Source: Candidatus Binatia bacterium
GTDB taxonomy: Bacteria; Desulfobacterota; Binatia; HRBIN30
NCBI GenBank assembly: GCA_023150935.1
Contig: JAKLJW010000003.1
Span: 1 to 64,000, forward strand
Length of the DNA stretch: 64,000 bases
Reading direction: 5' to 3'
Shown here: one piece after another, positions 27,592-37,525 of the stretch
Layout of the letters: each line of letters opens with the position of its first letter
Numbering within the stretch: position 1 is the stretch's first letter
Made by a program: the position numbers and the translations under genes
The notes under the pieces: generated by a model
Database searches by the model: none
What the model was told of the DNA's origin: nothing
What the model saw: only the letters and a program-made list of their open reading frames with translations

Positions 27592-27848
27592 CGTTCCTCC
27601 ATAGATGTGTCGTTGTGCTCTGAGATGTCGGTCGCACGCAAGTGTTGCGGAAGCACCGCAGCGTCGGGGCCGGAAGCACATTTCGGCGCAACGTCTTCCG
27701 TGTAGCTGCATCTCAGGAGCCAGGGGGTGTAAGAAGGTGAACATAAATGAACCCGATGGCCGCGTCGTCGCACGCCGGCGCCGTCGTCTGAACCGCAGAT
27801 CATGGCTGATCGAACAGGGCAACCAGATCAGAAGTGAGAGGTGAGATC

Positions 27849-29003
27849 GTGTTGAAAGTCGAAGCGTCAGTCCTGGAGCGCTATTCGCGCGGCGCCGCAA
27901 GGCGCGAAGCGAGCCTCTGCTGCCCGGTGGACTACAACGAGAAATACCTCGAGATCATCCCGGCCGAAGTGATCGAACGGGACTACGGCTGTGGGGACCC
28001 GTCCGCTCACGTGCGCCCCGGAGACGTCGTACTCGATCTCGGCTCCGGAAGCGGCAAGGTCTGCTTCATCGCGGCGCAGGTGGTCGGACCCACAGGGCGG
28101 GTCGTCGGCGTGGACATGAATCCGGACATGCTGGCCCTGGCGCGCCGCCACGCACCCGACATCGCCGCGAAGCTCGGTTACGGTAACGTCCAGTTCGTCC
28201 GTGGGCGAATCCAGGATCTGCGCACCGACCTCGATGCCGTGGACCGCTACCTGTCGCGGCATCCGATCGCCTCGCAGGACGACCTGTGGGCCTTCGAGGC
28301 TACCCGCGAGGAACAACGCGAGACGCGCCCGCTGGTCGCCGACGAGTCCATCGACGTCGTCGTGTCGAACTGCGTCTTGAATCTCGTCCGCGACGACGAC
28401 AAGCAGATACTGCTCAACGAGATCTTTCGCGTCCTGCGAATCGGGGGACGGGCGGCGATCTCCGATATCGTCTCGGACGAACCGGTGCCGGAGACGCTCA
28501 AACAAGACCCGGAGTTGTGGTCAGGGTGCATCTCGGGAGCGTTCCAGGAAAAGGCCTTTCTCGACGCGTTCGCCGCCGCCGGGTTCTACGGCATCGAGAT
28601 TCTGAAGCGTGACGCCGAACCGTGGCGGACGGTGCAGGGCATCGAGTTCCGTTCGGTCACGGTGCGGGCGTGGAAGGGAAAGCAGGGGCCGTGCTGGGAA
28701 CACAATCAGGCCGTCATCTACCGCGGTCCCTGGAGCGAGGTCCGCGACGACGATGGACACACCCTCACGCGCGGCGTACCGGTGGCCGTTTGCGAGAAGA
28801 CGTTCCGTCTCTATGGGCAGGAACCCTACGCCGCCGACATCATACCGGTGCCTCCGCGGACTCCCGTGGCGCCCGAGGCGGCGCAACCTTTCGATTGTTC
28901 GCGCGCCACGGTGCGCGCTCCGCGCGAGACCAAGGGGCTGGAGTACGATCTGACCAGCGGGGCAGAGACCGGGGCTTGCGGCGGTAACGGGAGCTGTTGC
29001 TGA
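27849..29003 (+). CDS. arsM: SAM-dependent arsenite methyltransferase-like protein (ArsM type, arsS-linked)
   Basis: About 384 residues. GTG at 27849 follows GAGAGGTGAG; GTG 27834 is an alternative. The SAM motif is VVLDLGSGSGKVCFIAAQVV, then VVGVDMNPDMLALARR. Cys residues in SLCCPVDYN, VVSNCVLNL and WSGCISGAFQ match the three arsenite-binding cysteines of ArsM. The C terminus ends GACGGNGSCC, a possible extra thiol site. It overlaps arsS (TGATG), the radical-SAM partner of arsenosugar synthesis. A tiny reading frame of 14 codons (27747-27791) upstream could be a leader. Substrate arsenite is inferred from family and context. Confidence 0.85.
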   Translation: MLKVEASVLERYSRGAARREASLCCPVDYNEKYLEIIPAEVIERDYGCGDPSAHVRPGDVVLDLGSGSGKVCFIAAQVVGPTGRVVGVDMNPDMLALARRHAPDIAAKLGYGNVQFVRGRIQDLRTDLDAVDRYLSRHPIASQDDLWAFEATREEQRETRPLVADESIDVVVSNCVLNLVRDDDKQILLNEIFRVLRIGGRAAISDIVSDEPVPETLKQDPELWSGCISGAFQEKAFLDAFAAAGFYGIEILKRDAEPWRTVQGIEFRSVTVRAWKGKQGPCWEHNQAVIYRGPWSEVRDDDGHTLTRGVPVAVCEKTFRLYGQEPYAADIIPVPPRTPVAPEAAQPFDCSRATVRAPRETKGLEYDLTSGAETGACGGNGSCC

Positions 29004-30013
29004 TGGCCCGTTCAGGCGGGGCCCTGCCACAACCGGAGAACGCCGAGTCGTTTCCGGATTTCTCCGCGGCTGCCCGGGCCGTTTCACCGGAGGGCTTGCG
29101 GCGCGAGCGCGTGACCACACTCCAGGTCAACGTCGGCAAGCTCTGCAACATGGCGTGCCATCACTGCCATGTCGACGCGGGGCCGAAGCGGCGCGAGATC
29201 ATGCCCCGCAAGGTTGCCGAGCGGGTGATCGAGCTGCTGGCGGCGAACCCTGCCGTCGCTACCCTCGACCTCACCGGCGGCGCCCCGGAGCTCAATCCGA
29301 GCTTTCGCCGGCTGGTCACCGAAGCGCGCCGTCTCGGGCGGGAGGTGATCGACCGGTGCAACCTCTCGGTGCTCTTCGAGCGCGGGCAGGAGGATCTCGC
29401 CGAGTTCCTGGCCGCCAACGAAGCTCACGTGGTGGCCAGCCTCCCTTGCTACAGCGCAGCCAACGTCGATCGGCAGCGCGGCAATCGGGCGTTCGAGACC
29501 AGCATCGGCGGGTTGCGCCGTCTCAACCAGCTCGGCTACGGCTGCGACGATCCCTCGCGGCGGCTGGATCTCGTCTACAATCCCGTCGGCGCCTTCCTCC
29601 CGCCCGCGCAGGCTGAACTCGAAGGGCGCTACAAGGACGAACTGCGACGCGGATTCGGCGTCGAATTCGATCGGCTGCTCACGATTACGAACATGCCCAT
29701 CAAGCGGTTCGCCGCCTGGCTGGAGAAGGCCGGTCAGCTCGACGCCTACATGGGCCTGCTGGTCAACCATTTCAACCCCGCGACCCTGCCGGGGCTCATG
29801 TGCCGCTCCCTGGTGAGCGTCGCCTGGGACGGCACCGTGTACGACTGCGATTTCAACCAGATGCTCGGTCTCGCTCTCGGCGCCGGGGAGGAGCGAACCG
29901 TCTGGAATCTGTCCGATTTCGAGGCGCTGGCCCAACGGGACGTCGCTACGGGCTCGCACTGTTTCGGCTGCACGGCGGGGGCGGGGTCGAGCTGCTCGGG
30001 GGCGCTGCAATGA
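29003..30013 (+). CDS. arsS: Arsenosugar biosynthesis radical SAM protein ArsS
   Basis: 336 residues from ATG 29003, which overlaps the arsM stop. The radical SAM cluster motif is KLCNMACHHCHVDAGPKR (C-x3-C-x2-C). LDLTGGAPELNPSFRRLV is the glycine-rich SAM-binding strand. The C-terminal ArsS domain (DUF3641) contains NHFNPATLPGLMCRSLVSVA, TVYDCDFNQMLGL and HCFGCTAGAGSSCSGAL. In family members this step installs the deoxyadenosyl group on dimethylarsenate. All the cysteines appear as ordinary Cys codons; no in-frame UGA/Sec is seen. Confidence 0.92.
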   Translation: MARSGGALPQPENAESFPDFSAAARAVSPEGLRRERVTTLQVNVGKLCNMACHHCHVDAGPKRREIMPRKVAERVIELLAANPAVATLDLTGGAPELNPSFRRLVTEARRLGREVIDRCNLSVLFERGQEDLAEFLAANEAHVVASLPCYSAANVDRQRGNRAFETSIGGLRRLNQLGYGCDDPSRRLDLVYNPVGAFLPPAQAELEGRYKDELRRGFGVEFDRLLTITNMPIKRFAAWLEKAGQLDAYMGLLVNHFNPATLPGLMCRSLVSVAWDGTVYDCDFNQMLGLALGAGEERTVWNLSDFEALAQRDVATGSHCFGCTAGAGSSCSGALQ

Positions 30014-31107
30014 TCTGGATGCTCGCCGGCGCCGTCGTTCTGCTCGCCTACTCGAACGGCGCCAACGACAACTTCAAGGGCGTCGCCACGCTCTACGGCA
30101 GCAAGGTGCTGAGTTACCGCTCGGCATTGCTGCTGGCGACCGGCGCAACCATGCTGGGATCGTTTTCGGCCCTGGCCTTTGGCTCCGCACTGCTCCAAAA
30201 CTTCAGCGGCAAGGGACTGGTACCGGACGCGCTCGCCGCCGATCCGCGCTTTCTCGCCGCCGTCGGGCTGGGCGCCGCACTGACGGTGCTGTTGGCCACC
30301 CGCCTGGGCTTTCCCATATCGAGCACTCACGCCCTGATCGGCGCGCTCGTCGGCGCGGGTTTTGCCCGCGCCGGTGCGGACGTCAACGTCGCGCGGCTTG
30401 GTTCGGTGTTCATCGCACCCTTGATTGCCAGCCCGCTGGTTGCGTCCGTGCTGGCGGGCGGGCAGTACCCTGTGTTGCAGACGATGCGCCGGAGGTTGGG
30501 GATCGAGGCCAACACCTGCGCTTGCGTAGGTGCGGAGTTGGTGCCGCTGCCGAACGGCATCGGCACGGCGGCGGCATTGTCGGCGATCACCGCAAGCGTC
30601 GGAACGCGGCACGAATGCGCGGCGCGCTACGGAGGCACAATCCTCGGGATCGAAGCCTCGCGGGCGCTGAACGTATTGCACGGCCTGTCGGCGGCGGCGG
30701 TAAGCTTCGCGCGTGGAGTCAACGACACCCCTAAGATCGCCGCTCTGCTTCTCGCCGCGCCGTTTCTGGCGCCGCAGCACGAGGTGGCGATCGTGGGCCT
30801 GGTAATCGCCGCCGGTGGGCTCCTCCACGCCAGAGGGGTGGCCGAGACGATGAGTCACCGCATCACGGCCATGAACCCCGGCCAGGCTTTCACGGGAAAC
30901 CTTACCGCCGCCTTGCTCGTACTGCTGGCCAGCCGCCTCGGCTTCTCCGTATCGACGACTCACGTCGCCTGCGGGGCGCTGTTCGGTATCGGCTCGATCT
31001 CCGGGCAGGCGCGCTGGGGAATGATCGGCCGGATTCTGTCGGCGTGGGCGATCACCGTGCCGGTGGCAGCGGTCCTGGCGGGCATCGCGGCGACTCTCAT
31101 GAAGTGA
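30010..31107 (+). CDS. PiT-family phosphate (possibly arsenate) permease
   Basis: 365 residues from ATG 30010, overlapping the arsS stop; longer upstream frames run inside arsS. About ten transmembrane helices. The duplicated PiT signatures are LAYSNGANDNFKGVATLYGS and SFARGVNDTPKIAALLLAA, together with GFPISSTHALIGALVGAGF and GFSVSTTHVACGALFG. These transporters move phosphate with cations and also carry arsenate. Tight coupling to arsM-arsS suggests a role in taking in or exporting an arsenic compound (inference). Confidence 0.9.
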   Translation: MIWMLAGAVVLLAYSNGANDNFKGVATLYGSKVLSYRSALLLATGATMLGSFSALAFGSALLQNFSGKGLVPDALAADPRFLAAVGLGAALTVLLATRLGFPISSTHALIGALVGAGFARAGADVNVARLGSVFIAPLIASPLVASVLAGGQYPVLQTMRRRLGIEANTCACVGAELVPLPNGIGTAAALSAITASVGTRHECAARYGGTILGIEASRALNVLHGLSAAAVSFARGVNDTPKIAALLLAAPFLAPQHEVAIVGLVIAAGGLLHARGVAETMSHRITAMNPGQAFTGNLTAALLVLLASRLGFSVSTTHVACGALFGIGSISGQARWGMIGRILSAWAITVPVAAVLAGIAATLMK

Positions 31108-31177
31108 ACGATAATTGGGCTCGGAGGTCCGGGCGCCGGAAACTCCCGGGGCCGATCACGGGTTCCCCCCCGAGATA

Positions 31178-31275
31178 CCCGATTTGCGAGTTCCGAGTTT
31201 GCGCGCACGGAGCGAAGAAACCGTATGGGAGGCGCGGTTGATCAGGCCATTGGGTTGCGGGCGCCAGCCCGCGCC
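31178..31275. repeat. Dispersed hairpin repeat, copy A
   Basis: The element starts CGATTTGCGAGTTCCGAG, continues GTTTGCGCGCACGGAGCGAA, and ends with TTGATCAGGCCATTGGGTTG and the stem GCGGGC-GCCA-GCCCGC. The whole order reappears at 52485-52650 and its 3' half at 23509-23556. It lies between the PiT permease and the flavoprotein gene. In places it reads through as protein, which makes the upstream extension of the flavoprotein frame a false one. Confidence 0.75.
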
Positions 31276-31342
31276 AGTGAGGAGAACAAAATCACCCCTT
31301 CCGGGCAGGTTTCGGAGCACCGCCGGAATGAAAGGACCTCGG

Positions 31343-32869
31343 ATGAGAAGCGACATCCCCGCGGCACTGCTGCCGCTCGACGAACACAACGCTCGACTGG
31401 CCGCCAATGTGCGCCCCGACGATTGGGTGAACCCGACGCCGCGCGGGCGCTACAACCTGGTTGTCGTCGGGGCGGGCGCCGCCGGCCTCGTCTCGGCGGC
31501 AGGTGCGGCGGGTCTCGGTGCTCGGGTGGCGATCGTCGAACGCGAATTGATGGGCGGCGACTGCCTCAACGTCGGCTGTGTTCCTTCGAAAGGCATCGTC
31601 AGCGCCGCGCGAGTCGCCGCCACGGCACGCCACGGCAGCGACTTCGGCATCGCCGGAAACGAGCGGGTGACGGTTGACTTCGGCCGCGCCATGGAGCGGA
31701 TGCGGCGGCTGCGCGCCGACCTCAGCAAGGTCGACTCGGTCGCGCGCTTTCGCGATCTCGGGGTCGACGTCTTCCTTGGTCAGGCCACCTTTACCGGCCC
31801 CGACCGCTTGGGCGTCGGCGGTCGCGAACTGCAGTTCAGTCGCGCGGTTATCGCCACCGGGGCCCGGGCCGCCGCACCGCCGATCCCCGGACTCGATCAG
31901 GTGCCCTATCTGACCAACGAGACCGTGTTCTCGCTAACCGAACTACCCGGGCGGCTGGGCATCGTCGGCGCCGGACCGATCGGTTGCGAGATGGCACAGT
32001 CCTTTGCGCGCTTCGGCAGCGAGGTCCATCTGATCGAGGCGCTGCACGGCGTTCTGCCCCGCGAGGAGACCGACGCAGCCGAGATCGTGCGCCGGGCGCT
32101 CGATCGGGACGGGGTTCGGCTCCGCTGCTGCGGCAAGGATCTTCGCATCGAGCAACGCGGCAACGGGATTCGCATCCTCGTGGAGTCGCACGGCAGCAGT
32201 CTCGACGTCGTCGTCGATCGGCTTCTCGTCTCCGTGGGGCGCGCACCCAACGTCGATGGGCTCGGCCTCGAAGCCGCCGGCGTCGCGTACGATGGGAAAA
32301 AGGGCGTGCTCGTCGACGATCGTTTGCGAACTTCCAACAAGCGCATCTTTGCCGCCGGCGACATCTGCTCGCGCTACCAGTTCACGCACGCCGCCGACTT
32401 CATGGCGCGAATCGTGATCCAGAACGCGCTCTTTTTCGGCCGCCGGAGCGCCGGCGCATTGACGATCCCGTGGTGTACATACACGTCACCCGAGCTGGCG
32501 CACGTGGGTCTGTATCCCGCCGAAGCGGAGGCGCGGGGGATCGAGATCGACACGTTCGATCAGAAGCTCGACGAAGTCGATCGCGCCGTCCTCGAAGGCG
32601 AAGCGGAGGGCTTCGTCCGTGTCCACGTCGCCAGAGGGACCGACCGCATTGTCGGCGCGACCATCGTGGCCGCCAACGCCGGCAATCTGATCGGCACGAT
32701 GTCTCTGGCGATGACGCAAAAGATCGGCCTCGGTGCGATCGCGTCGACGATCTATCCCTACCCGACGCAGGGCGAGGCGATCCGCAAGGTGGGAGACCGG
32801 TACAACCGCACAAGGCTCACGCCAACGGTGAAACGCCTCTTCGACCGCTGGTTTTCGTGGCGGCGCTGA
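31343..32869 (+). CDS. Mercuric reductase-like FAD-dependent disulfide oxidoreductase
   Basis: 508 residues; ATG 31343 follows AAAGGA, and the frame further upstream is repeat-derived. The FAD site is NLVVVGAGAAGLVSAAGAAG, and the redox pair is GGDCLNVGCVPSK (C-x4-C). NAD(P)H binding is RLGIVGAGPIGCEMAQSFAR, and the second FAD strand is KRIFAAGDICSRYQFTHAAD. The dimerisation domain ends IYPYPTQGEAIRKVGDRYN and lacks the vicinal C-terminal Cys pair of true MerA. Such proteins often travel with VTT proteins. Likely role is reduction of a thiol or metalloid substrate in the arsenic locus (inference). Confidence 0.85.
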   Translation: MRSDIPAALLPLDEHNARLAANVRPDDWVNPTPRGRYNLVVVGAGAAGLVSAAGAAGLGARVAIVERELMGGDCLNVGCVPSKGIVSAARVAATARHGSDFGIAGNERVTVDFGRAMERMRRLRADLSKVDSVARFRDLGVDVFLGQATFTGPDRLGVGGRELQFSRAVIATGARAAAPPIPGLDQVPYLTNETVFSLTELPGRLGIVGAGPIGCEMAQSFARFGSEVHLIEALHGVLPREETDAAEIVRRALDRDGVRLRCCGKDLRIEQRGNGIRILVESHGSSLDVVVDRLLVSVGRAPNVDGLGLEAAGVAYDGKKGVLVDDRLRTSNKRIFAAGDICSRYQFTHAADFMARIVIQNALFFGRRSAGALTIPWCTYTSPELAHVGLYPAEAEARGIEIDTFDQKLDEVDRAVLEGEAEGFVRVHVARGTDRIVGATIVAANAGNLIGTMSLAMTQKIGLGAIASTIYPYPTQGEAIRKVGDRYNRTRLTPTVKRLFDRWFSWRR

Positions 32870-33197: not shown

Positions 33198-33340
33198 CGG
33201 TAACGCGTGCGCTGCCGTTCCAAGCCCGGCCCGGGATCGTGAGCGCGCGGCATGGAATATGCGTTGCCCTCTGTCACCTCACGGCGCTCGAACGAGCTGT
33301 CCGCGCGGATACTCGCGTGTCTTACACGGAGGTCACTTCG

Positions 33341-36300
33341 ATGCGGCATCTGTTCCGGCTCTCGGCGACGGTTTCCCGTCCGCTCGGCCTGGTTGCTTTG
33401 TTCGTCACGCTGACCCATTGCTCCGACGGCGGTTCGCCGCCATCGTCAGCGAGCCCCTCGGAGGTCCCGCCCTACCCTTACATCGCCGGCACGTCGGCCC
33501 CACCCGTGCCGCCTGCGGACCGGCTCGGGGCTCCGGCGGTGACTGCGCCGGCCATCGACACCTCTCAGTACAAGCTTCCCGGCAGCGGCGGGGGCGACGA
33601 GAGCAACTGCAGTCAATGGAAGACGGTCAACCAGACATTCTTCCAGTGGTGCACCGCGTACGAGGACGCCACCGTCATGCAGGTGGTCAACCTGGCCAAC
33701 GCCTTCCACGAGGCCACCGGAGAGGAGTACAACTTCACGGGGGCGTTCAACTTCTACATCGTCGACGAGAGCGGATTGCTGGTGCGCCCCGACGACTTCA
33801 CGCGCCCCTCGGCGGCGCTGAAGCAGAGCCTGGTCGGCATGTTCGACGCCCTCAAGACCGCCGACCTGAACTGGGGATCGCGGCTCGAGTTCCCGCTCGC
33901 CGGACAGAGCCATTTCAGTCCCTACCCGGCGCCGCCCTCGTTCGACCCGCAGTCGCGGCCGAGCAGCACGGCACTCGATTTCGCCTATCCGCAGTTCAAG
34001 TTGTTCTACGACCTGCCGGAAGTCTCCGCTGCGGTATTGAGTCGTAATCCGCTGGCGTTGTCGGCGGAGTTCGGCGGAGGCGGGGGCTTCGGGTGTTATG
34101 TCGGAACAGTCGACGCATCGGGAACAGCCATCGATCCGCCGTTGATTCAGTTCGGCGGCGGTTTTGGATTCGGCCTTGCCGAATTCGACGGTGTCGATAG
34201 CGGATACGGCGGCGGAGTGAACCTGTGCTCCCCGCCGGCAGGGTCCTTCCTTGCGGCCTGCGTAGAGGACGGCACTGCGTGGTGGGGTGGCGGCGGTGGC
34301 GTGAACAACTCGGAGGTCTGCGGCACGGGCGGCCCGTGCGAACAGACCGACACCGACCTCAGCGGTGACATGCAGGTGTTCAACAGTCAGTTGCGGTCGG
34401 GCAAAGCGTACAACGATCTGATCACGGCCGATCCGCGGACGATCTACGTCGAGTGCGGTTTCGGCGGCGGCATGGGCTATCAGAGCCGCAACAACGCCGA
34501 CCCCGCGGACCGCTTCCTCGTGCAGACGTTCGGTTTCGGGGGCGGCGGGTGGTCGTTCTTCCAGCTCTGCCGCTCGAGACCGGATTCCTGTCCGGCCTTC
34601 GACGTAAGCGACTTCGCCGACCAGACCGCGAGCTTCTTTGCCGGTGCGTCGGGCACCGCGGCAACGAAAGACCGGAGCGTTCGGCGGGATTCGCAGGCCG
34701 TTGTGGACGTCCCCCCCGGTCTGGCAACTCGCGGCGTGTTCACGTGCGATAGCACCGCTCCGGCGAAGTTCGCAGTCGCGCGCGGGTTGCAGTTCGTCTA
34801 CGAGCCGTACCACTTCTTTCCGACTACGGGTGCGAACCCGAGCTGCGCGCCGGCGTCGACGCAGGGGGATCCGGAGACCACTTACATCCCCGGGAGCACG
34901 AGCCCGGCATCGCTCTTCCTTGCCGCCAACCTGACCAACTACCCGGCGAAGACGCTCCTGGAAGCCGACCTCGCCGCCATCCGCGAGGTCGACGTCGGAG
35001 GTGTCGTCTACGCCATCAATCTCAACCCGGTGTGGGTCGATTACACCGGCGCACCGGCGGGCTTGACCACGAACATCAACGACATGGTGCTGGCGACGCT
35101 CGCCGGCGAGGGCGGCGAGCCGATACCGACGACGTTGCTCGTCCCGCTCTTCCTGACTCCCGACGACACCAGCGTCGCGGGCCAGTCTCCCATCGTCACC
35201 GCCAACAAGGAGCTGCTCGATTACGCGATCCAGGCCGCGAAGACGTACCCGCACGTGACCGGAATTATGCTCGGCACGGCCACGCAGGGCGTCATCCGCG
35301 GCTTCGCCGCTGCGTGCAACGGTTACAACTTCAACACCGACGCGATGCGCGCTCGGTGCGGCGCGTACATGCAGTCGCTCACCTTCCAGAACTACTACGA
35401 TCTGATCGCCTACCTCACCGGCGCCATCGAGGACGCCGCGGTGGGAAGAACGCTCGCGGTCGGCATCGACCAATCCGCGACCAATTGGCTGTTGCAGACC
35501 AGTGTCAGCAACAGCGCGACCCTGCCGAAGCAGAGCCTGCTGGAATACTGGACAGCGACGATCCCGAACGCGGTTGCCGCGGGGAGTTCGGTCGATCTGC
35601 AGCCGATGGTGACGATCGAACTCGTACCCGAGCTGCTCGGGACCCCCCCGGTGTCGCTGACGTTCCGCGATGCGCTCGCTTATCTGAAGGAGACGTGGGA
35701 ACCGCTCGTCAGCGGCGGCATCACGGCGTTCGGCCGGCCGCTGGTGCAGACGGGCTGGTACGGCGACGACGCGGCAGCCTTCTACGAGGCGTTTGCGAAT
35801 TGCCCGGGTGCCGATCCGTATTCCATCTGCGATGTGCAGACCGCGGCAGATCTCGTCTTCGACGAGCTTTTCGATCAACCATGGAAGGGCCTCGATCCGA
35901 AGAGCCCGGGCATGCCCGAAGCGCAGTGCGGTTTCGCGTTTCCCGTCGATCACCAGGTGCCGGACAACCCGCCCGGACCGCCGCTACCGGCGGCGCTGCC
36001 TAACGTGTGTGCGCCCGACTTCTACAACTTCGACTACGCCGCCGGCGGCCAGCCGGAGCCGCCTTGCCTTTGCCTCGTCAATTCGACCAGTTACCCGGTG
36101 TCCTTCTTCGGTCTGGTGAGCGATGTGGCAACGCCCGATCCGTCCGCGATAAAGACCGTTCCCGCCAACCGCGTGCTCGCGTACCCGAAGGATGCGAGCG
36201 ACGACTTTTACCGGAAGTACGTCCAGGGCAAGGACGGGGCGTGGAATCTCGGCGTGACGTGGAAGCAGTTCCCGCTGAACATCTCGTTCTTGATGGACCC

Positions 36301-37525
36301 CGACGATCCCGGCAAGTACGAGGGTGCTCCGGTGCCGAGCGCGGCGTCGCTAACGGTGAACGAGTCGCTGCGCTGCGTTGGCGTTTCCGACGCCCAGAAC
36401 GGCGCCGCGAGTGCGAATGCCGGATTCTACTGTCCGAAGGTCTGGTTCGCACAGCCCGATACGCTGACTCGCGCGTATGTCGACGCCGACGGGTGCGCGA
36501 ATCTGACGTGGGCGTTGCAAGGTTCCGGGTACGAGCTGATCACCGGATGGTTGATCAAGACCGTCGAAGCGCCGGCGCCGACCGCGGTCAACCCGAACAT
36601 CCCGACCCCTGCGTACGCACCCATCGTCATGATCCCGCGGGAGGATCAGCGACTGGAGCCGGCGAACAAGATGGTGAGCGCCGGGTTCCGCTTCTGTCCC
36701 GACCCGAACAATCCGGACCCGTACTATCCGTTCCCCACCGGGCTGACCACCGGGAGTTACTACTTCGAGGTGAAGCCGCTTGCCGGCGTTCCATCGACGC
36801 AGGCGATCGATTTCGGCTACCTTGCGATCTACGGGCTGAAGGTCGAGAAGACGGCGCAGAATCCGGGACCGACCGACTGGACGACGCTCGGCAAGTTCAC
36901 CTTCGAATACCCGGGATCGGGTAGCGCCGACATGCCGAACGTCGGCTCGATCGTCTTCACGCTGCCCAACAAGAAGACGCTGACCTTTACGCCCTGCGTG
37001 GACAACTGCGCCGCGGACTTCACCCTGCCCGGAAAGAAAGCGACGGGTTCCGACGCCGCCGGGCTCAGCTACGTAACCAACATGAGAATGAACTTCCTGC
37101 AGCCGGTGACGGTCACGTTGCCGGACGGGACGGACGGGCAGGTGACAGCGTGCAGTGTGGATCTCGATATAACGGCGGGCAAGAACAGCGGCGACGACGG
37201 CGGCAAGGCGCAGGTCGTCGGCAGCGTCCCGCTCGCGCCCAGCTACGAGAATTGCTGGCTCGAGCTGCAATCCGGCGGGTTCGTGAACGGCGGGGCGTTT
37301 TCCTTCACGTTGCCGGCGTCGGTCCTCACGGCCCCGACCGCCGTGTGCGTGCTCGATGCCCGGGCCGGCGACACCGAAGCGTGCGCCAACGGGATCGTGA
37401 CCGGGCGGTACGACACGTCGGGCAAGTGCACCACTGCAACCGCCTGCGCGGCGGCGCCATGCAGCGGCTTATGGTGCAACGTCGTCGACGCGCTCGTCCC
37501 GCAACCGCCACCGCCGCCGCAATGA
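33341..37525 (+). CDS. Very large exported protein with GH17-like motif, function unknown
   Basis: 1,394 residues. ATG 33341 follows GGAGG at the right distance. A signal peptide (PLGLVALFVTLTHCSDGG) ends near Cys 27; LTHC is a poor lipobox, so lipidation is uncertain. Next come an N-terminal Cys-containing region, a Gly-rich stretch (about 240-400; e.g. FGGGFGFGLAEFDG, WWGGGGGVNN), and a possible TIM barrel with VVYAINLNPVWVDYTG. The barrel ends LVFDELFDQPWKGLD, which resembles the E-x-F-D-E-P-W-K end of GH17-like barrels. A C-terminal beta-rich part has many Cys and a final Pro run. No close family is recognised. It stands alone, between the arsenic and efflux loci. Confidence 0.8.
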   Translation: MRHLFRLSATVSRPLGLVALFVTLTHCSDGGSPPSSASPSEVPPYPYIAGTSAPPVPPADRLGAPAVTAPAIDTSQYKLPGSGGGDESNCSQWKTVNQTFFQWCTAYEDATVMQVVNLANAFHEATGEEYNFTGAFNFYIVDESGLLVRPDDFTRPSAALKQSLVGMFDALKTADLNWGSRLEFPLAGQSHFSPYPAPPSFDPQSRPSSTALDFAYPQFKLFYDLPEVSAAVLSRNPLALSAEFGGGGGFGCYVGTVDASGTAIDPPLIQFGGGFGFGLAEFDGVDSGYGGGVNLCSPPAGSFLAACVEDGTAWWGGGGGVNNSEVCGTGGPCEQTDTDLSGDMQVFNSQLRSGKAYNDLITADPRTIYVECGFGGGMGYQSRNNADPADRFLVQTFGFGGGGWSFFQLCRSRPDSCPAFDVSDFADQTASFFAGASGTAATKDRSVRRDSQAVVDVPPGLATRGVFTCDSTAPAKFAVARGLQFVYEPYHFFPTTGANPSCAPASTQGDPETTYIPGSTSPASLFLAANLTNYPAKTLLEADLAAIREVDVGGVVYAINLNPVWVDYTGAPAGLTTNINDMVLATLAGEGGEPIPTTLLVPLFLTPDDTSVAGQSPIVTANKELLDYAIQAAKTYPHVTGIMLGTATQGVIRGFAAACNGYNFNTDAMRARCGAYMQSLTFQNYYDLIAYLTGAIEDAAVGRTLAVGIDQSATNWLLQTSVSNSATLPKQSLLEYWTATIPNAVAAGSSVDLQPMVTIELVPELLGTPPVSLTFRDALAYLKETWEPLVSGGITAFGRPLVQTGWYGDDAAAFYEAFANCPGADPYSICDVQTAADLVFDELFDQPWKGLDPKSPGMPEAQCGFAFPVDHQVPDNPPGPPLPAALPNVCAPDFYNFDYAAGGQPEPPCLCLVNSTSYPVSFFGLVSDVATPDPSAIKTVPANRVLAYPKDASDDFYRKYVQGKDGAWNLGVTWKQFPLNISFLMDPDDPGKYEGAPVPSAASLTVNESLRCVGVSDAQNGAASANAGFYCPKVWFAQPDTLTRAYVDADGCANLTWALQGSGYELITGWLIKTVEAPAPTAVNPNIPTPAYAPIVMIPREDQRLEPANKMVSAGFRFCPDPNNPDPYYPFPTGLTTGSYYFEVKPLAGVPSTQAIDFGYLAIYGLKVEKTAQNPGPTDWTTLGKFTFEYPGSGSADMPNVGSIVFTLPNKKTLTFTPCVDNCAADFTLPGKKATGSDAAGLSYVTNMRMNFLQPVTVTLPDGTDGQVTACSVDLDITAGKNSGDDGGKAQVVGSVPLAPSYENCWLELQSGGFVNGGAFSFTLPASVLTAPTAVCVLDARAGDTEACANGIVTGRYDTSGKCTTATACAAAPCSGLWCNVVDALVPQPPPPPQ

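Follow-up and report, generated by a model that had tools for sequence, protein, structure and literature searches.

What is a 1,394-residue exported protein of no recognised family, standing alone in its genome, and could it be an enzyme that acts on a beta-glucan or similar polymer, as a first-pass annotation had guessed from a motif resembling the FDEPWK end of GH17-type barrels? The gene lies in the 64,000-nucleotide stretch of Candidatus Binatia bacterium DNA analysed here (the window; contig JAKLJW010000003.1), and its features, all on the forward strand, are as follows:

33328..33332, +: Shine-Dalgarno-like GGAGG, 8 nt 5' of the ATG at 33341 (read in the sequence)
33341..37525, +: coding sequence for the 1,394-residue protein, including its stop (translation, codon usage)
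33341..33421, +: putative export signal, residues 1–27, with a weak lipobox LTHC and Cys27 at its end (translation)
33572..34735, +: N-terminal region, residues 78–465, with Gly-rich, Cys-containing stretches at ~244–410, no known family (translation, family searches, codon usage)
34781..35896, +: predicted degenerate GH17-like (beta/alpha)8 barrel, residues 481–852, with insertions relative to GH17 (profile comparison, guided model)
35270..35290, +: beta-4 proton-donor site LGTATQG, residues 644–650, (V/I)GNE in GH17, with Ala647 replacing Glu (profile alignments)
35747..35749, +: beta-7 nucleophile site, Gln803 in VQTGW, (G/S)ETGWPS in GH17 (profile alignments)
35858..35890, +: beta-8 motif FDELFDQPWKG, residues 840–850, with GH17 counterparts EAFDQPWK and EMFDEPWKG
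35948..37522, +: C-terminal region, residues 870–1394, rich in Pro and Cys, no known family (family searches, codon usage)

The frame translates as had been described, into 1,394 residues and a stop, and the RBS-like GGAGG and the coding-like codon usage agree with it: GC at codon positions 1, 2 and 3 is 0.605, 0.518 and 0.842, and the codon log-likelihood per codon, with seven other genes of the window as reference, is 0.14 to 0.29 across all seven segments of the frame. Because this value is ≤0.06 in the other five frames, an 835-aa antisense frame is regarded as a by-product. The N-terminus, MRHLFRLSATVSRPLGLVALFVTLTHC-SDGG, looks, by eye in the translation, like an export signal whose lipobox is weak. 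The lipobox consensus is [LVI][ASTVI][GAS]C after a hydrophobic signal, and His at −1 is unusual in lipoproteins; LTHC matches at positions −3 and −2 and has the misfit His at −1, and the protein perhaps carries a lipid anchor. The poor lipobox had been noted before, as had a Gly-rich Cys stretch, which we locate at residues about 244–410; the whole protein has 35 Cys. The gene does stand alone, with 471 bp between it and an oxidoreductase frame upstream and 149 bp between it and a TetR gene downstream, beyond which lie HlyD and ABC efflux genes. The scan of neighbouring genes, the nearest of which are the oxidoreductase and the efflux operon, showed none for glycan metabolism. In genome G001 this operon and the oxidoreductase are on different contigs, so the synteny is of little weight.

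The absence of a recognised family is borne out by searches of Pfam (E ≤ 1), NCBIfam (E ≤ 5) and PDB sequences (E ≤ 5), all of which were empty for the whole protein, and by Pfam searches with three parts of it, which gave no match at E ≤ 10; a PDB match to a bacteriophytochrome in the search by parts (E 0.68) is regarded as chance. The GH17 family PF00332 gave no reported match to residues 466–886 at E ≤ 10, a silence to be read in the light of the HMMER filters, which discard most matches above E ~0.1, and none in the source organism's own genome at E ≤ 1. The whole protein is an orphan, with no credible relatives in the collections searched. At E ≤ 1e-3 it matched one of 58 near genomes, its own, and two of 395 phylum genomes (sampled evenly from a larger set), its own included; the non-self match (E 8.6e-4) is a 110-aa frame with three stops and is regarded as chance, as is a weak match within its own genome (L002) that sits on GroEL-like DNA. 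At E ≤ 1 there were matches in 16 of 148 class genomes, its own included, with the best site outside the gene at E 0.03, and the barrel region used by itself matched 42 of the 395 phylum genomes, again its own included, with the best other at E 0.009. Six exact 8-residue peptide patterns, which can detect only near relatives, matched eight stretches of the genome contigs, none of them confirmed, and no viral contigs; plasmids gave no match with tblastn at E ≤ 10.

Profile-profile comparison aligned residues 519–864 over 233 columns (score 51.3, probability 89.8, P 1.8e-6) with profile A1, which comprises 11 GH17 proteins of the same phylum chosen from 30 GH17 loci (L018, L057–L085), L068 having been omitted because its selected range contains a stop and the remaining loci for convenience. 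Against A1, 200 shuffles scored at most 25.2 and the window's remaining 95 open frames of ≥250 aa at most 23.4, and the two terminal parts of the protein itself scored 15.8 (N) and 12.0 (C). With the wider profile A4 the domain scored 36.7 (probability 42) and the full protein 56.0, and the maxima were 23.4 for 100 shuffles and 27.8 for 50 decoys, which were the longest frames at 50 of the 55 loci L002–L056 (five were excluded as GH17 matches or the studied gene). The rows of A4, like those of A3, are the 37 that a 62% identity filter left of 80, themselves the best 80 of at least 581 confirmed GH17 loci.

Most of the GH17 signal in residues ~481–852 is carried by the C-terminal motif. The FDEPWK-like end that had been reported, F-D-E/Q-P-W-K in GH17, is indeed present as FDELFDQPWKG from residue 840, and its Glu842 aligns with a Glu that is invariant in the A1 GH17s. 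When residues 837–852 were masked the score fell to 21.9 (A1) or 27.8 (A4), which is noise level, though the register was correct, and the score of the masked remainder was reached by two of 100 shuffles with A1 and one of 100 with A4. When the motif was kept and the remainder shuffled, none of 100 sequences reached the observed A1 score; the corresponding A4 scores averaged 37.7, and 50 of 100 were at or above the domain's 36.7. Pairwise BLASTP against one GH17 protein (L058) aligned ELFDQPWKG with EMFDEPWKG (E 0.005) and YEPYH with YQPYH (E 1.2, weak alone), which are the two ends of the barrel, in order. To judge from these comparisons, the resemblance to GH17 appears to extend past a single motif, though not by much.

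Other barrel families were also considered. The domain scores 16.8 against a GH5 profile built from 12 domains of related genomes, which is within noise, and those 12 GH5 domains score at most 27.4 against two GH17 profiles; these values argue that the match is GH17-specific, and GH5 was rejected. A further GH17 profile, A2, weakly matched frames mostly 850 to 1,175 aa long in many genomes of the class. Seven of these loci were examined: in six, a barrel with GNE intact precedes what by eye is a glycosyltransferase-like part, and at the seventh (L191) only the opposite-strand frame was displayed. These frames look like a separate clan-A group and were rejected as relatives.

AlphaFold supplied with 37 GH17 rows arranged eight strands in barrel order (mean pLDDT 64, pTM 0.69), a model that, being guided by those rows, is not independent of the GH17 hypothesis. 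VIA-align of this model placed first 6fcg, an endo-laminarinase that we assign to GH17 by its name (Z 19.2 over 284 residues; next Z 17.6), and further GH17 chains are present in its list. Foldseek placed other TIM barrels on top; among the 50 rows listed the query-length TM-scores are 0.17 to 0.44 and none is titled GH17, and 6zb8 and 6zb9 are exo-beta-1,3-glucanases whose titles give no family. The check proposed earlier, for a TIM barrel with two catalytic Glu in residues 520–900, thus had a divided outcome: the guided model is a barrel with a GH17 laminarinase neighbour, but the domain folded alone and unguided reached a pLDDT of only 36, and the two Glu are absent (below). The guided model predicts, with modest confidence, a (beta/alpha)8 barrel for residues ~481–852.

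Catalysis by GH17 is described, in passages of PMC11005184 and PMC13188888, as dependent on two Glu, and the studied protein has neither. At and around the proton-donor site, residues 643–654 (MLGTATQGVIRG), there is neither Glu nor Asp; which residue fills the proton-donor column depends on the alignment, Ala647 in two profile alignments and Gln649 in a third alignment, which has 51 rows, and neither is acidic. The nucleophile position is Gln803. In the 51-row alignment Glu occupies the proton-donor column in 48 rows and the nucleophile column in 49, a conservation biased by the use of nucleophile- or beta-8-motif patterns in collecting GH17 rows; the 51 rows represent 49 distinct proteins (L018/L178 and L020/L184 are identical) and do not include the partial class matches L187 and L188. 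The earlier description of the protein as GH17-like therefore stands for the ordered profile match over 519–864 and the guided TIM barrel but not for the catalytic Glu pair, whose loss had been named in advance as the finding that would tell against the proposal. Since proton-donor and nucleophile Glu are both absent, enzymatic action on glucan, the activity guessed at the outset, is unlikely.

Our preferred explanation, held with moderate confidence, is that the protein is exported and perhaps lipid-anchored, and that its middle third (~481–852) derives from a beta-1,3-glucanase-type barrel of bacterial GH17 (clan A) and has lost both catalytic glutamates, for which reason it is most likely non-catalytic. 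Held in the periplasm or at the outer surface, the protein would bind a polysaccharide, which by descent might be beta-1,3-glucan-like, through the former sugar cleft and perhaps also through its two family-less terminal regions, or failing that would serve as a surface scaffold. A GH17 active-site mutant with Ala at the nucleophile position, 4wtr, was crystallised with laminaribiose (described in part of PMC11005184), and a GH17 cleft without its nucleophile Glu can therefore still hold sugar. Glycan binding is by this analogy the best reading of the protein's role, and glucan or a similar polymer as its ligand is a guess.

An active GH17-descended glycosidase or transglycosylase that makes up for the lost pair with carboxylates at other positions (Glu760 on beta-6, say, or Glu764 immediately beyond that strand) seems to us quite improbable. 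Acidic residues do persist on and just after the predicted beta-6 strand, the beta-8 motif is intact, and export and the many Cys would fit an extracellular enzyme; both canonical positions are nonetheless non-acidic in a family described, in the passages cited above, as using two Glu, and Glu842 offers no replacement, since it is invariant in the A1 GH17s too. More deserving of attention, although still unlikely, is that the protein has no kinship with GH17: it would be an exported orphan, whether or not it contains a TIM barrel of another sort, and its ELFDQPWKG and loosely ordered remainder would match GH17 by chance. The noise-level scores after masking, an A4 domain score no better than that of the motif alone, the silence of PF00332, the failure of the unguided fold and the dependence of the barrel model on GH17 rows are all as this reading would have it. 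Against it, the A1 score is reached by no motif-kept shuffle and by no decoy, the masked remainder is equalled by very few shuffles and lies in the expected register, and the two ends of the barrel align in order with its beta-4 and beta-7 segments between them. It is in our judgement rather unlikely that the protein has a structural or adhesive task at the surface, its relic barrel acting purely as a scaffold without any bound glycan, a reading that overlaps the fallback of the preferred explanation; this reading is favoured by neighbours that are an oxidoreductase and an efflux operon with no glycan-metabolism gene seen among those scanned, and by the large Gly-rich, Cys-containing flanking regions that have no family.

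The protein resembles GH17 beta-1,3-glucanases and glucanosyltransferases (PF00332; RmBgt17A, 4wtp, and FbGH17A, 6fcg) in its ordered barrel match, its FDxPWK end and its predicted (beta/alpha)8 fold, and differs from them in having no catalytic Glu pair, long insertions, a 1,394-residue context with two family-less regions, and no Pfam match. Heparanase 2 is a GH79-like clan-A protein. It has lost a catalytic Glu and kept one, and binds heparan sulfate without cutting it, according to part of PMC12406646; the likeness is in manner of working rather than family, a glycosidase-type fold (here predicted) minus catalytic Glu, whereas heparanase 2 is an animal protein of another family and the studied protein keeps neither Glu and would bind by analogy. 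Bacterial surface glycan-binding proteins are described in a portion of PMC7157763 as belonging to polysaccharide utilisation loci; by its proposed role the studied protein would share with them export, a possible lipid anchor and a hold on beta-glucan at the surface, but no such locus was seen around its gene. Literature searches for a GH17 pseudoenzyme and for GH17 in Binatota found no paper in the library searched, and one on catalytically inactive GH17 proteins and laminarin gave a single plant review.

Should the barrel prove to be of GH17 type and non-catalytic, the reuse of glycosidase folds for binding may be commoner in bacteria than family counts suggest, and glucan degradation predicted from such barrels would be wrong. 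A second protein of the same class, of 375 aa and by eye also secreted (genome G021; L208:6467–7594), has VGSGGL and GASGL at the catalytic sites and has thus lost both Glu. Pfam misses it too, as Pfam and NCBIfam wholly miss the studied protein, and such proteins are consequently counted as unknown. We suggest, very tentatively, that the class contains a new kind of large surface pseudo-glycosidase, in which GH17-type barrels lost both Glu, it seems on more than one occasion (in this protein and in that of G021), and now serve as glycan-binding or sensing modules, in the present case between two family-less regions. The G021 protein is like the studied one in class, apparent secretion, GH17 likeness and the absence of both Glu, and differs from it in its size, in being without large flanking regions and in its much clearer match to a GH17 profile (probability 98.2).

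The protein proved to be as the first-pass annotation had described it with respect to frame, export signal, Gly-rich region, Cys content and isolated position, and its parts are as follows:

33341-37525, + strand: coding frame, 1,394 residues by translation
Residues 78-465: N-terminal region, Gly-rich around residues 244-410
Residues ~481-852: candidate barrel domain
Residues 870-1394: C-terminal region, Pro- and Cys-rich

A GGAGG stands 8 nt 5' of the ATG, third-position GC of the codons is 0.84, and codon usage is coding-like in 7/7 tested segments of the frame. The putative export signal closes with LTHC, which reads as a poor lipobox, and the protein contains 35 Cys. On one side of this solitary gene lies a pyridine-nucleotide oxidoreductase and on the other a TetR gene heading an efflux operon. 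Genes for a methyltransferase, a radical-SAM protein whose tail is DUF3641 (which we take to be ArsS-like), a PHO4 phosphate transporter and the oxidoreductase follow one another at positions 27834-32869 and possibly form an arsenic or arsenosugar cluster.

Neither the whole protein nor its tested parts gave a Pfam, NCBIfam or PDB sequence match, except for a single PDB match (E 0.68) put down to chance. Credible whole-length relatives numbered zero among 58 near genomes (its own included), 148 class genomes and 395 phylum genomes, none were found in plasmids or viral contigs, and exact peptide patterns, the only search made of named species genomes, found none there; the protein is an orphan at the depth searched. 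PF00332 gave no match at E ≤ 1 in the orphan's own genome and matched in 25 of the 395 phylum genomes at E ≤ 1e-3 (16/395 above the curated cut-off).

Three GH17 proteins from the phylum genomes (L057, L058 and L060) were read full-length, and five segments of the orphan's middle align by eye, in order, with L058:

Segments aligned by eye, orphan versus L058
beta-1: YEPYH, YQPYH
between the beta-1 and beta-4 pairs: LLEADLAAIRE, EVEADMLLIAR
beta-4: KELLDYAIQAAKTYPHVTGIMLGTA, AEIDKGIQLAGQHPNTVKALIVGNE
beta-7: GRPLVQTGW, KTIIVGETGW
beta-8: DELFDQPWKG, FEMFDEPWKG

Two-sequence BLASTP between the same proteins detected only the two ends, the first weakly. Profile-profile comparison with A1, built from 11 same-phylum GH17 proteins, matched residues 519-864 at a score of 51.3 (probability 89.8, P 1.8e-6), against a maximum of 25.2 in 200 shuffles, 23.4 for the best of 95 other frames in the window (96 in all), and 15.8 and 12.0 for the orphan's own N- and C-terminal parts. 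With A4, a wider GH17 profile of 41 rows, the candidate barrel domain scored 36.7 (probability 42) and the full orphan 56.0 (probability 89), where 100 shuffles and 50 decoy frames reached at most 23.4 and 27.8. Twelve GH5 domains scored no higher than 27.4 with either GH17 profile, and the barrel domain only 16.8 with a GH5 profile.

Masking residues 837-852, which hold FDELFDQPWKG (840-850), lowered the domain score to 21.9 (A1) and 27.8 (A4), values reached by 2/100 and 1/100 shuffles with the same mask, respectively, and the masked alignments retained the expected register. When these residues were kept and the remainder shuffled, the mean score was ~38 with either profile, and the observed score was reached in 0/100 (A1) and 50/100 (A4) cases. 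Thus, this stretch is the source of most of the GH17 signal, and the remainder lends modest support.

AlphaFold was uninformative for residues 466-886 alone (pLDDT 36); residues 470-880 supplied with 37 GH17 rows gave eight strands ordered as a barrel (pLDDT 64, pTM 0.69). The closest VIA-align neighbour of this guided model is the GH17 endo-laminarinase 6fcg (Z 19.2, rmsd 3.6, 284 aligned), followed by a glucuronidase (Z 17.6), with GH17 4wtp at Z 17.0; in Foldseek other TIM barrels lead, with query-length TM-scores of 0.17-0.44 and no GH17 title among the 50 rows shown. Because the model leans on the supplied GH17 rows, it is compatible with a GH17 barrel and not proof of one. The GH17-type barrel proposed in the annotation is plausible and has partial support in the ordered profile match.

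In GH17 enzymes the proton donor is the Glu after beta-4 and the nucleophile the Glu ending beta-7, as described in PMC11005184; PMC13188888 likewise names two catalytic Glu. The orphan's proton-donor site is LGTATQG (residues 644-650), where two alignments place Ala647 at the Glu position and no acidic residue was found nearby; its nucleophile position is Gln803. The annotation's guess at an enzyme acting on a beta-glucan or similar polymer, which it had tied to a catalytic Glu pair, fails on these two residues. In the joint alignment the proton-donor Glu is present in 48/51 rows (46/49 distinct proteins) and the nucleophile in 49/51 (47/49), figures biased upwards because some rows were fetched by motifs containing the nucleophile Glu; only the orphan and one protein of G021, a genome of the same class, lack both.

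The orphan is an exported protein with a probable degenerate GH17-like domain, most simply read as a GH17-derived barrel that would have lost the ability to cut. It might still bind glycan, by analogy with two proteins that bind after catalytic loss: an active-site mutant of RmBgt17A whose nucleophile position is occupied by Ala and which was crystallised together with laminaribiose (4wtr), and heparanase 2, a natural pseudo-glycosidase that binds without cleaving (PMC12406646). The scanned neighbours gave no hint of a glycan ligand.

The orphan's interest rests chiefly on the second double-Glu-loss protein, that of G021 (L208:6467-7594). It has 375 residues, appears secreted by eye, carries VGSGGL and GASGL where the two Glu are lost, and resembles GH17 by profile (probability 98.2), with no Pfam match at E ≤ 1. 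Near its gene, L208:10147-12351 encodes a 734-aa protein with, by eye, a PhoD-type phosphatase look. A protein of another class genome (G010; L022/L186) keeps the nucleophile Glu, and its proton-donor column is aligned without Glu; its GH17-like domain leads into a long tail of Thr/Pro repeats. Six further loci (L189, L193, L194, L196, L197 and L204) hold frames of ~860-990 residues with a GNE-keeping barrel and then, by eye, a family-2-like glycosyltransferase part, and weak matches of a similar kind occur in many genomes across the class.
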